Shown here piece by piece: positions 6,000 through 9,625 of a DNA stretch of 9,625 bases; the first letter of the stretch is position 1; every line of letters starts with the position of its first letter. Made by a program: the position numbers and the translations under genes. This DNA is from Acidobacteriota bacterium (GTDB taxonomy: Bacteria; Acidobacteriota; Vicinamibacteria; Vicinamibacterales; UBA8438), in NCBI GenBank assembly GCA_012963185.1, contig DTWD01000157.1, positions 1 through 9,625 on the forward strand. Direction: 5' to 3'. The notes beneath the pieces were generated by a model. The model did no database searches. It saw only the letters and a program-made list of their open reading frames with translations, and had not been told where the DNA came from.

Positions 6000-7418
6000 A
6001 TGGTAACGAAGGGAGCTCGGGGCGCTCAAGGGAACCGTGTCGTATTAATCGGTCGTCCTAATGTCGGGAAGTCGACCCTATTTAATAGGGTCTCAGGTGC
6101 TCGTTCGGCGATTGTGAATCCTGTAGCAGGAACGACGAGAGACATTCTCAGACGACCTGTCGAATGGCTCGGCAGAGAGTTCGAGTTAGTCGATACGGGC
6201 GGACTGTTTGGGGCAAGTAGTGACCCGTTGCAAGAAGAGGTCGCCAAACATGGTCTGAGAGAAATCGAAACGGCAGCCGTGCTCGTTGTGTTGGTCGATG
6301 GGCGGGATGGACTAATGCCAGCCGATGAGGAGGTGGTGACGCATGCCCGCCGGATTGGAGTCCCATTGGTATTGGCTGTGAACAAGGTCGACAACCCGCA
6401 ACTACAAGATCGGTCAGCCGAGTTTTTCCAACTTGCGATTTCGCCAGTAGTAACCGTTGCCGCAGAACATGGCCTGGGGGTCGGTGATCTTCTTGATGAG
6501 GTCGCAGCGAGACTGCCGGGTCAGCGACGTCTAGCAAGAAAGAGTCAACTGAGTGCCAGTGATGACGTGGTTGAATCCTCCGAAGGCAGCACTGAGATCC
6601 GTCTAGCGATTGTTGGTCGGCCGAATGTCGGGAAGTCGTCTCTTGTCAATCGGTTGGTTCGAGAAGAGCGCGTATTAGTGAGTGATCTTCCGGGAACCAC
6701 GCGAGATGCGATCGATACTGTTGTTGGATGGCACGGTCGTCGTATCCGACTGGTCGATACGGCAGGGATTCGTAAGCCAGGGAAAATTGCCCAGTCAGGA
6801 CAGGTCGAATCGGTCAGCACGTTACTTGCGCGGCGTGCATTGAAACGGGCAGACGTTGCAATCGTGCTTATCGATGCGACTGCCGGTGTAACGAAGCAGG
6901 ATGCCGCGGTTGCTGGTGAAGCGGAGCGAGCTGGTTGCAGCATCATCATCGCGGTAAATAAATGGGACCTCGTGAAGAAGGAGGGGGCCGACTACGTGAA
7001 GACGTTCGATGCGGACCTACGGGACAATCTCAAATTTGCTGACTTTGCCCCGGTTCTGCATATTTCCGCACTGACCGGAGAACGTACACAACAGGTTTTC
7101 TTTCGGAGTTTGAAAGTGGTTGAGGCGCGCGCCAAGCATGTGTCAACGGCAGAACTCAACCGTATGGTGACCAAGGCGACAGCTCGGCATCAACCTCATA
7201 GTCGCGGTCGAAAAGAGGTGAAGATTTTGTATGCCACGCAAGTGTCATCGCGGCCACCGACATTTGTGTTCTTCACCAATATAGAGACGCGGTTTCATTT
7301 TTCGTACCAGCGGTTTCTCCGAAATCAGTTGCGGCGAGCGTTTGGATTTGAGGGTTCTCCGATTTGGTTGAAAGCTCGTGCTCGTCGAGTCCAACCGCGG
7401 CGTGGTCGTCGTTCGTGA
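6000..7418 (+). CDS. der: Ribosome assembly GTPase Der (EngA), tandem G domains
   Basis: Essential GTPase with two consecutive G domains and a C-terminal KH-like domain; it binds the 50S precursor and promotes late large-subunit maturation. At 472 aa it is full length. G domain 1: GRPNVGKS (18-25), PVAGTTRD (41-48), DTGG (65-68), NKVD (128-131). G domain 2: GRPNVGKS (206-213), PGTTRD (231-236), DTAG (253-256), NKWD (320-323), SALTG (356-360). The KH-like domain occupies about 362-460 and a basic tail (ARRVQPRRGRR) ends the protein. The linker at 176-198 is acidic and variable. The only start in frame is ATG 6000; no close Shine-Dalgarno is seen (AAGGGAACGG lies about 17 bases away), so a leaderless or weakly initiated message is possible. 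Transcription is divergent from the HU-like gene. Confidence 0.97.
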   Translation: MVTKGARGAQGNRVVLIGRPNVGKSTLFNRVSGARSAIVNPVAGTTRDILRRPVEWLGREFELVDTGGLFGASSDPLQEEVAKHGLREIETAAVLVVLVDGRDGLMPADEEVVTHARRIGVPLVLAVNKVDNPQLQDRSAEFFQLAISPVVTVAAEHGLGVGDLLDEVAARLPGQRRLARKSQLSASDDVVESSEGSTEIRLAIVGRPNVGKSSLVNRLVREERVLVSDLPGTTRDAIDTVVGWHGRRIRLVDTAGIRKPGKIAQSGQVESVSTLLARRALKRADVAIVLIDATAGVTKQDAAVAGEAERAGCSIIIAVNKWDLVKKEGADYVKTFDADLRDNLKFADFAPVLHISALTGERTQQVFFRSLKVVEARAKHVSTAELNRMVTKATARHQPHSRGRKEVKILYATQVSSRPPTFVFFTNIETRFHFSYQRFLRNQLRRAFGFEGSPIWLKARARRVQPRRGRRS

Positions 7419-7446
7419 CGTTCCGCGGACGAGTAATTCGACTGGC

Positions 7447-7464
7447 TGATATACTCGCGCGAGT
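7447..7464 (+). promoter_or_regulatory. Extended -10 promoter with overlapping 12-bp palindrome upstream of merR
   Basis: TGATATACT at 7447-7455 is a TGn-TATACT extended -10; no good -35 is found 17 bases upstream, as is common with this class. A perfect palindrome, ACTCGCGCGAGT (7453-7464), overlaps its last three bases and covers the expected start point near 7462. This is the right place for an operator, perhaps for autoregulation by the MerR-like product 28 bases downstream. The promoter is reasonably supported; the operator role is inference. Confidence 0.55.
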
Positions 7465-7491
7465 CTGAATGTTGGGGTGATCCAGAGACGA

Positions 7492-7995
7492 ATGGCGGTT
7501 GAGATCCCAAAGCGGTCGGTCTTTAAGGCAAGCGAAGTGTGTTCAATCGCCGAGGTTCAGCCTTATGTACTCAGGTCTTGGGAAGCTGAGTTTCCAGTGC
7601 TTGGAAAGTCGAAAGGTGATGCGCGCGTATATCGGCGTGCCGATGTGGAGACGGTGCTCGAGATAAAGCGGCTGTTATACGAGGAAGGGCTCACGCTCGG
7701 TGCAGCACGTCGAAAATTGGATGCCGGGCTAGAAGTCGACGATAGTGATGGGTCTGTCGATGAATCTCTTGGGGACGATGCGCGGGAACGGATAAATCTA
7801 GCCAAGAAGGGGCTCCGATCGATACTTGAGTTGTTGTCTACAAACGAAGCCAAGAAACAGGGATTATTCGATGCTGAACCAGTGTCAGTTAGCGGACTGG
7901 CGAATGAACTATCTAACAAACGACAAGTTAATAAAAAGGTGGGACGTAAGCCTAGAGTCCTTAGAGCAGCGAAGAAGGAAACAGACCGAGCATAG
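7492..7995 (+). CDS. MerR family transcriptional regulator
   Basis: A 167-aa protein with an N-terminal MerR-type winged helix-turn-helix (about residues 4-70). VFKASEVCSIAEVQPYVLRS forms the helix-turn-helix, FPVL and DARVYRRADVE the wing, and VLEIKRLLYEEGLTLGAARRKL the following helices. The C-terminal part is acidic, then helical (INLAKKGLRSILELL), then lysine-rich; no effector-binding domain or metal-binding cysteine pair is seen, so the signal is unknown. The start is ATG 7492: GGTGATCC at 7476-7483 matches the anti-Shine-Dalgarno complement over eight bases with eight bases of spacing. A GTG at 7477 (172 aa) lies inside that site and is less likely. A MerR-like gene beside tRNA-Pro, often after an IHF gene, is a recurrent bacterial arrangement; here tRNA-Pro-like sequence begins eight bases after the stop. 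Confidence 0.9.
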   Translation: MAVEIPKRSVFKASEVCSIAEVQPYVLRSWEAEFPVLGKSKGDARVYRRADVETVLEIKRLLYEEGLTLGAARRKLDAGLEVDDSDGSVDESLGDDARERINLAKKGLRSILELLSTNEAKKQGLFDAEPVSVSGLANELSNKRQVNKKVGRKPRVLRAAKKETDRA

Positions 7996-8002
7996 ATATT
8001 GC

Positions 8003-8075
8003 CGGGGTGTGGCACGGTTTGGTAGCGCTCCTGACTTGTCGTCAGGGGTTTGCTGGCTCAAATCCGACGCCTATC
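8003..8075 (+). pseudogene. Decayed tRNA-Pro-like gene
   Basis: The 5' part reads as a tRNA-Pro: acceptor strand CGGGGTG (8003-8009), D-arm 8012-8028 containing GGTTTGGTA, and a perfect anticodon stem CCTGA / TCAGG (8030-8034, 8042-8046). The loop is CTTGTCG where tRNA-Pro(UGG) has CTTGGGG, turning the anticodon into UGU. The T-arm (8052-8068) keeps a recognisable CTCAAAT loop but its stem has a mismatch, position 54 is C, and there is an A-C mismatch in the D-stem. The 3' acceptor strand, expected CACCCCG, is GCCTATC and does not pair. I read it as a dead tRNA-Pro at its ancestral position after merR. A functional tRNA-Thr(UGU) is excluded by the acceptor stem. Confidence 0.7.
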
Positions 8076-8155
8076 GTTTTCTTGCCCAACCCCAACACTT
8101 CCAAAGCAAAACACGACCGGTCCTACAGACAAATTCTCGAAGACTAATTCAGTCA

Positions 8156-8953
8156 TCACCAGACTCCAGTCCAGCGCGGGTGCGCTTCGTTCCATTCGCG
8201 CGCAAGGCGTCGGCCTTCGGCGCGTTGGTCAAAGGTAAGTCTCTCGTAGACTCTGTCGCGGTTTTTAGCTGCGCGCTCGAGTGCTTCGCCGCTGCTTCTT
8301 GACGCAGCAAGATTGAACCACATGTATGCCTGCACATCATCCTGCGGCACACCTTTCCCTTTGTCACACATGACGCCAAGGCTGTACTGCGCTCCGGCTG
8401 AACCTTGGTTTGCCGCCAACCGATACCAGCCAAAGGCTTGCGCGTGATCCTGTGGCACACCTTGGCCAATGTCATACGCGTAGCCGAGGCTGAACTGTGC
8501 TTGGGCAAGCCCCTGATCGGCGGCCAACTGATACCAGCGAACGGCTTCCGCTTCGTCCTTCAACACACCAAGTCCGGTGAAGTACATGTAGCCGAGGGAT
8601 GTTTGCGCGTCGGGGTAGTCTTTTTCCGCTGCTAATTGAAACAGCCTTGCGGCTTCTGCAAAATCCCGTCGCACACCGTACCCGGTCATGTGCAGGATGG
8701 CGAGATTGTTCTGCGCCTCGCCAAGCCCTTGGTCTGCCGCCAACCGAAACCATCTGGCGGCCTCTACGTCATCCGGTGCTACACCTTGTCCTTGGCGATA
8801 TATGACACCGAGGCTGTACTGTGCGTCGGCATCACCCAGTTCCGCCTTCGCCCGAATTTCTTCGATAGACTCCTGCTGCGCAATGCCCACGACAGAAGTC
8901 GCCGCGACCAGAACTGCGACGGCCAATAATAGGTACGTAGAACGTCGAGTCAT
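8156..8953 (-). CDS. Secreted Sel1-repeat (SLR) protein
   Basis: A 265-aa protein with an N-terminal signal peptide (MTRR, hydrophobic core about 7-23, probable cleavage after GIA at 25), so periplasmic or exported. Five consecutive 36-residue Sel1-like repeats span 41-220 (genomic 8294-8833), each with the pattern AQ..LG..Y..G.GV..D..EA..W..LAA.QG. They begin at residues 41, 77, 113, 149 and 185. A basic/acidic helical tail (221-265) follows. Sel1 repeats form alpha-solenoid protein-binding surfaces; no enzymatic domain is visible and the partner is unknown. It stands alone on the minus strand between two tRNA-Pro fragments, and its base composition looks more GC-rich than the AT-rich flanks. 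This fits a cargo gene, although these proteins are also widespread in core genomes. A clear Shine-Dalgarno is not seen upstream of ATG 8953. Confidence 0.88.
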   Translation of the reverse strand: MTRRSTYLLLAVAVLVAATSVVGIAQQESIEEIRAKAELGDADAQYSLGVIYRQGQGVAPDDVEAARWFRLAADQGLGEAQNNLAILHMTGYGVRRDFAEAARLFQLAAEKDYPDAQTSLGYMYFTGLGVLKDEAEAVRWYQLAADQGLAQAQFSLGYAYDIGQGVPQDHAQAFGWYRLAANQGSAGAQYSLGVMCDKGKGVPQDDVQAYMWFNLAASRSSGEALERAAKNRDRVYERLTFDQRAEGRRLAREWNEAHPRWTGVW

Positions 8954-9250
8954 CAGAGTCCAAGCCTACCGCAGCATACCGTGAACGCTCGTAGAGTAGC
9001 GTCGTATTCCAGTTTGTAATCGCCATGCCTTCATTGGTCTGAACCAGGCGCAGACCGTGGCCCTAAAGCGGCGCAGAACATGATGCAAAAATGATGCAAA
9101 TTTGCCAAGAAGAAATCGTCACGATTAAGAAAGGTTCGGAAAGCTCTGGAAATATCCGCGGGTGTTTTTTAATCTCTTCTAGCGAAATACTTCGATTAAT
9201 GGGGCTTCAACAGGAGACACCATCAAAAACACGTTAATATTTGCACGGTT
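8954..9250. other. Intergenic junction region without a convincing gene
   Basis: About 300 bases between the Sel1 gene start and the tRNA-Pro half. It holds a 6-bp hairpin (GGTCTG 9036-9041 / CAGACC 9051-9056, nine-base loop), the ATGATGCAAA direct repeats (9080-9100) and an overlapping palindrome GCAAATTTGC (9096-9105). An open frame from 9067 to TAA 9237 runs through the repeats; from ATG 9091 it would be 48 residues. It resembles nothing I know and has no ribosome-binding site. It could be the 3' remnant of an integrase, but I do not call it a gene. Confidence 0.5.
9080..9100 (+). repeat. Tandem 10-bp direct repeat ATGATGCAAA, 11-bp period
   Basis: Two exact copies of ATGATGCAAA at 9080-9089 and 9091-9100, separated by one A. 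The 11-bp period places both on nearly the same face of the helix, as in arm-type sites of lambda-like tyrosine recombinases. They lie about 150 bases upstream of the tRNA-Pro half. The role as an integrase arm site is inferred; no integrase gene is in the window. Confidence 0.65.
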
Positions 9251-9289
9251 CGGGATGTGGCGCAGTTTGGTAGCGCACCTGACTGGGGG
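9251..9289 (+). pseudogene. tRNA-Pro(GGG), 5' half only
   Basis: An intact tRNA-Pro 5' half: acceptor strand CGGGATG (9251-9257), TG, a paired D-arm GCGC...GCGC (9260-9276) with AGTTTGGTA, then CCTGA (9278-9282) and loop CTGGGGG (9283-9289) with anticodon GGG at 9285-9287. The next bases should begin TCAGG but read TAATT, so homology ends at the 3' edge of the anticodon loop. No matching 3' half (acceptor strand CATCCCG) is found anywhere in the window. It agrees with the decayed copy at 8003 in 30 of the first 34 bases. It is either a gene split by an insertion whose 3' half lies beyond the right edge, or a truncated leftover. Confidence 0.75.
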
Positions 9290-9295
9290 TAATTC

Positions 9296-9321
9296 GATCG
9301 CGGGTCTCCGGATCTTTTTTT
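9296..9321 (+). terminator. Intrinsic terminator-like hairpin after the tRNA half
   Basis: Stem GATC-(G bulge)-CGG (9296-9303), loop GTCT, return CCG-GATC (9308-9314), followed by seven T (9315-9321). Seven base pairs with one bulge plus a T-run make a plausible rho-independent terminator. If the tRNA promoter still works, the product would be a roughly 70-base RNA carrying only half a tRNA. Confidence 0.55.
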
Positions 9322-9369
9322 GTGCGTTTCCCCTAATGTTTTCGCATTTATGCAATTTACGAATTTCAT

Positions 9370-9390
9370 TAGCGCCAATCTAGCGCCAAT
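9370..9390 (+). repeat. Tandem 10-bp direct repeat TAGCGCCAAT, 11-bp period
   Basis: Two exact copies of TAGCGCCAAT at 9370-9379 and 9381-9390, separated by one C. The architecture (10-bp unit, 11-bp step) equals that of the repeat at 9080-9100 although the sequence differs, and it lies about 80 bases downstream of the tRNA-Pro half. It is a candidate arm-type integrase site, possibly for a different recombinase. The remaining spacer 9391-9486 is AT-rich and shows no gene. Confidence 0.65.
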
Positions 9391-9486
9391 TAGGACGAGA
9401 TTCCGCTTTGCACTTTAGCTTCGTACGGCTACCCCTATTTACAAAATCTCTTTGAAGGATCTCAAATGAATCGCTAGGCTACGTGA

Positions 9487-9625
9487 GTGTTGGCGACGTC
9501 TGATTTCGCGGAATTTCTCGAGTCGTTCGATTTAGATGCCAAAAAACGTGGGACTCAATGGGAGCATGTCTGTCAATGGTTTCTTGAAACAGACCCCGTC
9601 TACCGTGCCCCACAATCGGTGTCCG
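9487..9625 (+). CDS. N-terminus of a probable restriction helicase (COG4889 / type ISP-like), truncated by window edge
   Basis: An open frame starts at GTG 9487 (or TTG 9490) right after an in-frame TGA and runs off the right edge, giving 46 residues. The segment FAEFLESFDLD, KKRGTQWEHVCQWFLETDPV and YR strongly recalls the N-terminal Mrr-like nuclease domain of large DEAD/DEAH helicases found in single-chain restriction systems (LlaGI/LlaBIII-like type ISP and COG4889 proteins). There a (K/R)G..(F/W)E..(C/V)..(F/Y)L..DP.Y helix opens the domain. Those proteins run to 1,000-1,600 residues, so nearly all of it is missing here, including the helicase and any methyltransferase parts. No strong Shine-Dalgarno or promoter is seen just upstream. 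The family is called from one short motif, so it is provisional. Its place beside a broken tRNA suits a defence island. Confidence 0.55.
   Translation, partial: MLATSDFAEFLESFDLDAKKRGTQWEHVCQWFLETDPVYRAPQSVS

Follow-up and report, generated by a model that had tools for sequence, protein, structure and literature searches.

Two truncated 5' ends of tRNA-Pro(GGG) behind merR in an Acidobacteriota genome, probably left by integrative elements

Integration into tRNA genes that displaces the 5' end of the gene is known from both bacteria and archaea. Among the mapped tDNA islands of the Islander database, a 5' fragment was reported for 159 of 3,919 (PMC4383910). A review describes archaeal integrases of the pTN3-like type, which take the 5' half of tRNA genes as their target, regenerate an intact tRNA and place its expression under the integrase promoter; it calls a comparable situation in bacteria seldom encountered (PMC8371274). 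The thaumarchaeal element CalSub-E1 sits at the 5' part of a tRNA-Ser gene, and Zhao and Williams 2002 is cited in the same source for 5' targeting (PMC6563490). Short direct repeats flanking an att core have been interpreted elsewhere as putative arm-type integrase sites (e.g. PMC8074189). Because of the 5' fragments in Islander and the archaeal pTN3-like precedents, the mode of integration is already known, and the locus described here adds a case. A lone 5' half, which the original prediction regarded as a departure from the usual reconstitution of the tRNA, is on the Islander count a known minority outcome. Among the titles listed by a literature search on tRNA-Pro islands in Acidobacteria, none concerned such elements.

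Two 5' pieces at the native tRNA-Pro(GGG) site

The window, by which we mean the whole analysed stretch of 9,625 nucleotides, is a piece of bacterial chromosome, and the loci best matched by its MerR protein were found in Acidobacteriota MAGs. When 193 genomes of the class were compared, the closest Der proteins were 67-69% identical to that of the window. The gene for the merR-type regulator (7492..7995, + strand, PF13411) has tRNA-Pro(GGG) downstream of it in relatives, and the order der - merR - tRNA-Pro(GGG) is maintained among them. ARAGORN placed the tRNA behind merR in all five of the genomes with the closest Der protein, and it was located no more than 3 kb behind merR in 43 of the 80 loci found by MerR, some of the remaining loci ending shortly past merR. 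At this native site, the window carries a decayed copy that begins at 8003, and an intact first half of the gene follows 1.25 kb further on.

The intact 5' half covers positions 1-40 of tRNA-Pro(GGG) at 9251..9290 on the + strand and is identical at 40 of 40 bases to complete genes in seven genomes; matches to this tRNA at E<=1e-6 were present in 90 of the 193 class genomes. The break is sharp and lies one base past the anticodon loop. Beyond position 40, the closest of 20 different 3' halves agreed with the DNA at 13 of 37 bases. This is the chance level, as the same value was reached by 1325 of 5000 shuffles and, for random pieces of the window, by 1697 of 5000. That the 3' half had merely decayed in place was also considered and was dropped, since the tail was no better than chance against the 20 3' halves. 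The predicted conserved 5' half, with similarity stopping right after the loop, was thus confirmed.

With a complete gene as query, blastn-short returned the half at 9251, the piece at 8003 and, beyond these two, nothing longer than matches of 8-12 bases, and therefore no 3' half of tRNA-Pro lies downstream within the window, which ends at 9625. ARAGORN, whose use had been proposed together with the prediction, called no tRNA gene over the window, and none at 8003-8064 in particular. Neither a group I intron nor a tRNA was reported by Rfam for the whole window at E<=1. The sole Rfam match, to ASdes at 2394-2454 on the - strand inside a priA-like ORF, scored 21.5 bits where the curated score is 40, and was taken as chance. 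An ordinary tDNA island supplies the 3' half and completes the tRNA at the junction, and no 3' half was found after position 40 at the 9251 junction. Exact scans of viral contigs gave no match to the 5' half, the hairpin region behind it or the repeat at 9370.

The second piece, which the original prediction had overlooked, is located 1,248 bases from the 9251 half. It corresponds to positions 1-62 of tRNA-Pro(GGG) at 8003..8064 on the + strand, with 33 of 40 and then 18 of 22 identities, followed by 1 of 15. Compared with the 20 distinct 3' halves, the part at 41-62 matched at 19 of 22 bases (reached by 0 of 5000 shuffles) and the part at 63-77 at 3 of 15 (reached by 4890 of 5000). As the match runs through 62 and falls away at 63-77, this piece also ends sharply, in the T stem. 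It has accumulated changes since its truncation, and we read it as an older displaced 5' fragment, the scar of an earlier element. No pair of direct repeats was found beside its cut at 8064 among 8-base repeats spaced by 10-13 bp. In local alignment, the presumed older element showed no likeness between its two sides (523 of 2000 shuffles as good).

A second case in a relative and its integrase

We compared the contexts of the 5' half in the class. After similar ones were merged, which makes them fewer than the total of 5' half matches, there were 83 distinct contexts, comprising 79 complete genes, two cut by contig ends and two lone 5' pieces. The lone pieces were found on contig C18 of genome G056 and on contig C100 of genome G179 (L140); the latter, at 1796-1855 on the - strand, is a tRNA-Pro-like 5' piece that ends in the T arm. 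The lone-half pattern occurred in 0 of 396 phylum genomes, a sample in which G056 happened not to be drawn; the pattern would not have matched it. A lone 3' half was also observed, on contig C1224 of genome G181 (L249, 1467-1507, - strand); it is a tRNA-Pro(GGG) half that starts from position 37 with 41 of 41 identities, and, judged by eye, the DNA behind it nearly repeats that behind the complete gene on contig C205. By its sequence, this half is apparently the mark of a usual 3'-supplying island.

In G056, the lone 5' half of tRNA-Pro(GGG) on C18 occupies the merR site and is truncated at the same place as in the window, to within one base. A different contig of this genome, C92, carries a complete tRNA-Pro(GGG) that is identical to the C18 half over the 41 shared bases. 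A tyrosine integrase of 377 aa (PF00589), which is identical to DMG02_27655 of Acidobacteria bacterium in a protein listing, ends 105 nt upstream of this tRNA and is oriented in the same direction. The DNA to the right of the C18 cut and the interval between integrase and tRNA on C92 share a repeat-bearing stretch of 25 bases at 22 identities, for which 0 of 2000 shuffles were as good. This layout on two contigs has the appearance of an element supplying the 5' half. The separate contigs C18 and C92 could not be linked through the genes that follow the tRNA in seven relatives. As a further observation at 2008-2125 of L141, the complete tRNA on C92 ends without an encoded CCA, and behind it lies an 11-bp pair of a different motif, perhaps belonging to a further element, of the 3' type, on its other side.

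Relatives of the G056 integrase were found in 2 of the 193 class genomes (E<=1e-25) and 1 of 396 genomes of the phylum sample (E<=1e-40), with none in viral contigs and none in plasmids at E<=1e-40. Four places carried one. The integrase on C92 and the C-terminal remnant of a close relative on contig C76 of G056 directly precede a tRNA-Pro, which is tRNA-Pro(TGG) in the case of C76. In G192 (C10), a copy in two pieces is located ahead of tRNA-Pro(TGG) across a run of N, and in G329 (C61) there is an integrase fragment with no tRNA in its 3.3-kb locus.

The junctions of the window were then compared with those of G056 and C76. By local alignment, 1196, 1993 and 604 of 2000 shuffles were as good, and 372 of 2000 in a separate run; only with the cut as anchor was the result better, 4 of 1000 shuffles being as good. 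A likeness between the DNA to the right of the window's cut and that of G056 was therefore not upheld by local alignment. As the junctions are not significantly alike, the integrase of the window would be a different one.

Direct repeats, neighbouring genes and the hairpin

Only two 8-base direct repeats with a spacing of 10-13 bp occur in the window; both have an 11-bp period, and they flank the 9251 half with different motifs. The upstream repeat, ATGATGCAAA in two copies at 9080..9100 on the + strand, lies 151-171 nt before the half and is a putative pair of arm-type integrase sites of an older element. The downstream repeat, TAGCGCCAAT in two copies at 9370..9390 on the + strand, begins 80 nt after the cut and may represent the arm-type sites of an element that starts at the cut. 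Both pairs look like integrase arm sites, and this role is putative.

Similar pairs were observed at other loci of the class. Within 150 nt behind tRNA-Pro(GGG), 11-bp pairs were present in 18 of 82 loci (among L081-L250), with differing motifs, compared with 0-2 of 82 loci for each other spacing from 8 to 16; 150-nt pieces drawn at random from other loci had an 11-bp pair in 0.13% of cases. Since pairs of differing motifs follow 18 of the 82 loci, tRNA-Pro(GGG) looks like a hot spot of integration in this class of Acidobacteriota. On the upstream side, within 200 nt, an 11-bp pair was found in only 1 of 86 loci, which is the integrase end of G056; upstream pairs at other spacings were not rare (0-7 of 86 class loci). 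The 21-mer of the 9080 repeat is present in five viral contigs representing three distinct settings, with three of the contigs having identical surroundings, and in one setting (L260) its surroundings, judged by eye, look like an att region, with a tyrosine-recombinase-like ORF and the 3' fragment of a tRNA nearby. For the 9370 repeat, the 193 class genomes gave four matches, each with three mismatches, and a reversed control also gave four; a longer upstream pattern had no match in these genomes.

According to the original prediction, an island interrupts a real tRNA-Pro gene, whose 3' half lies at the far end. Such a split would arise if a usual island had entered the anticodon loop without bringing a matching half. 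The distance of 80 nt between the cut and the downstream repeats would also fit elements of the 3' type, and the lone 3' half in G181, starting from position 37, indicates that usual crossovers in the anticodon loop do occur at this gene in the class. Nevertheless, 79 of the 83 class contexts are complete, so that splitting without repair looks rare or absent; G056, the lone case with a cut in the anticodon loop, has a complete copy behind an integrase on another contig; and the upstream repeat pair of the window suits an element that supplies the 5' half. We consider the split gene unlikely. The island of the prediction was retained, whereas its far end probably does not carry a lone 3' half, because the other junction in G056 is a complete tRNA and the element there brings its own 5' half.

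Between the two tRNA pieces lies a gene for a Sel1-repeat protein (8156..8953, - strand; PF08238, E 1.4e-54), which had no tblastn match at E<=1e-3 beside merR in the five closest relatives, in stretches of 9-19 kb. No integrase gene was recognised between the pieces from the ORF list and the Pfam search of the Sel1 gene, and no tyrosine integrase anywhere in the window. At 9487..9625 on the + strand, a gene begins that runs past the window end; its start resembles a DEAD/DEAH box helicase by tblastn, with 45% identity over query residues 2-41 to a helicase on a Rhodococcus plasmid (E 7e-6). This ORF had matches in 2 of 72,556 plasmid records (E<=0.01) and in 2 of the 193 class genomes (E<=0.001) and no Pfam family above the cut-off; it is perhaps cargo of the element. 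The lack of a recognised integrase gene between the pieces, and the presence of a second, degenerate piece so near, would suit inert debris, that is, a spare copy of tRNA-Pro truncated by duplication and deletion or by other illegitimate recombination with no site-specific event. Such debris, however, would have to end by chance at the anticodon loop, no more than one base from where the G056 half is cut, and to have the only 11-bp repeats of the window on either side of it; we regard this origin as very unlikely.

Behind the cut, a weak hairpin at 9296-9314 is followed by seven T at 9315-9321, together forming a possible terminator (9296..9321, + strand). The hairpin and the T run are present as the original prediction described, but the stem is bulged, its folding energy of -8.4 kcal/mol was equalled by 12 of 200 shuffles, and a consensus scan counted no terminator there or anywhere in 7400-9625. 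As an alternative, the original prediction had the tRNA half turned into a short terminated RNA. Its 5' half free of mutations and the hairpin with seven T behind it speak for a functional product, yet an unmutated half is also explicable by a recent insertion, no sigma-70-like promoter was found on the + strand in 8665-9250 by a consensus scan that covers this type, and the 120 nt after the cut in G056 contain no stretch of five T or longer. Nothing that we found supported a functional short RNA, which we hold to be extremely improbable.

Proposed origin and comparison with known systems

The two stubs, their sharp ends, the 11-bp repeats on both sides of the 9251 half and the same layout on two contigs of G056 were observed directly. 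They are probably explained by an element that carried its own 5' half and, at its left junction, displaced the 5' end of tRNA-Pro(GGG) now seen as the half at 9251-9290, with the piece at 8003 as an older scar. A tyrosine integrase would have recombined in the anticodon loop of tRNA-Pro(GGG), and the copy of the 5' half brought by the element would have rebuilt a working tRNA downstream of the integrase gene at the far end, where it would be expressed from the element. The far end here lies outside the window, so that we infer the reconstitution, as we do the expression and the order of events. An earlier, broadly similar element would have cut in the T arm and left the piece at 8003-8064 as its left scar. 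The stubs end in the anticodon-loop region (after 40) and the T arm (after 62), where the recombination would have taken place. Each insertion would move the working tRNA further from merR and leave a stub behind. Because a repeat pair lies upstream, at 9080, the 9251 copy itself may be the 5' half supplied by the older element, whose other scar is 8003.

A more extended version is that the merR-tRNA-Pro(GGG) site of this lineage has become a ladder of successive 5'-supplying elements, each entering the last working copy of the tRNA and moving the gene further away from its original place, with the gene now under the promoter of an element. We consider this quite unlikely; if true, the decoding of the codons read by tRNA-Pro(GGG) would be controlled by mobile DNA. 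Under the displaced-end origin itself, the window would provide a bacterial case, with a second in a relative, of an uncommon mode of integration in which the DNA of the element takes the place of the tRNA gene's front and thereby of its promoter. A single junction, through its stub and the 11-bp repeats, may also suffice to recognise such insertions.

The element in G056 shares with the window the same tRNA, a cut within a base and the merR neighbour. It differs in the arm repeats, in the lack of significant similarity at the junction, in having no T run after the cut and in that its integrase is known. As in the tDNA islands described for Islander, which are delimited by a displaced fragment at one end and the complete tRNA gene at the other, with the crossover often in the anticodon loop, a displaced fragment was found here, in this case a 5' one; unlike those islands, the window shows the fragment end alone, and two stubs in succession. 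CalSub-E1, as described, likewise involves recombination with the 5' part of a tRNA gene, although in another domain and with another tRNA. The proposed element of the window has in common with the pTN3-like elements, as the review presents them, an attB formed by the 5' half of a tRNA gene, and is distinguished from them by its bacterial host and by its target, tRNA-Pro(GGG).
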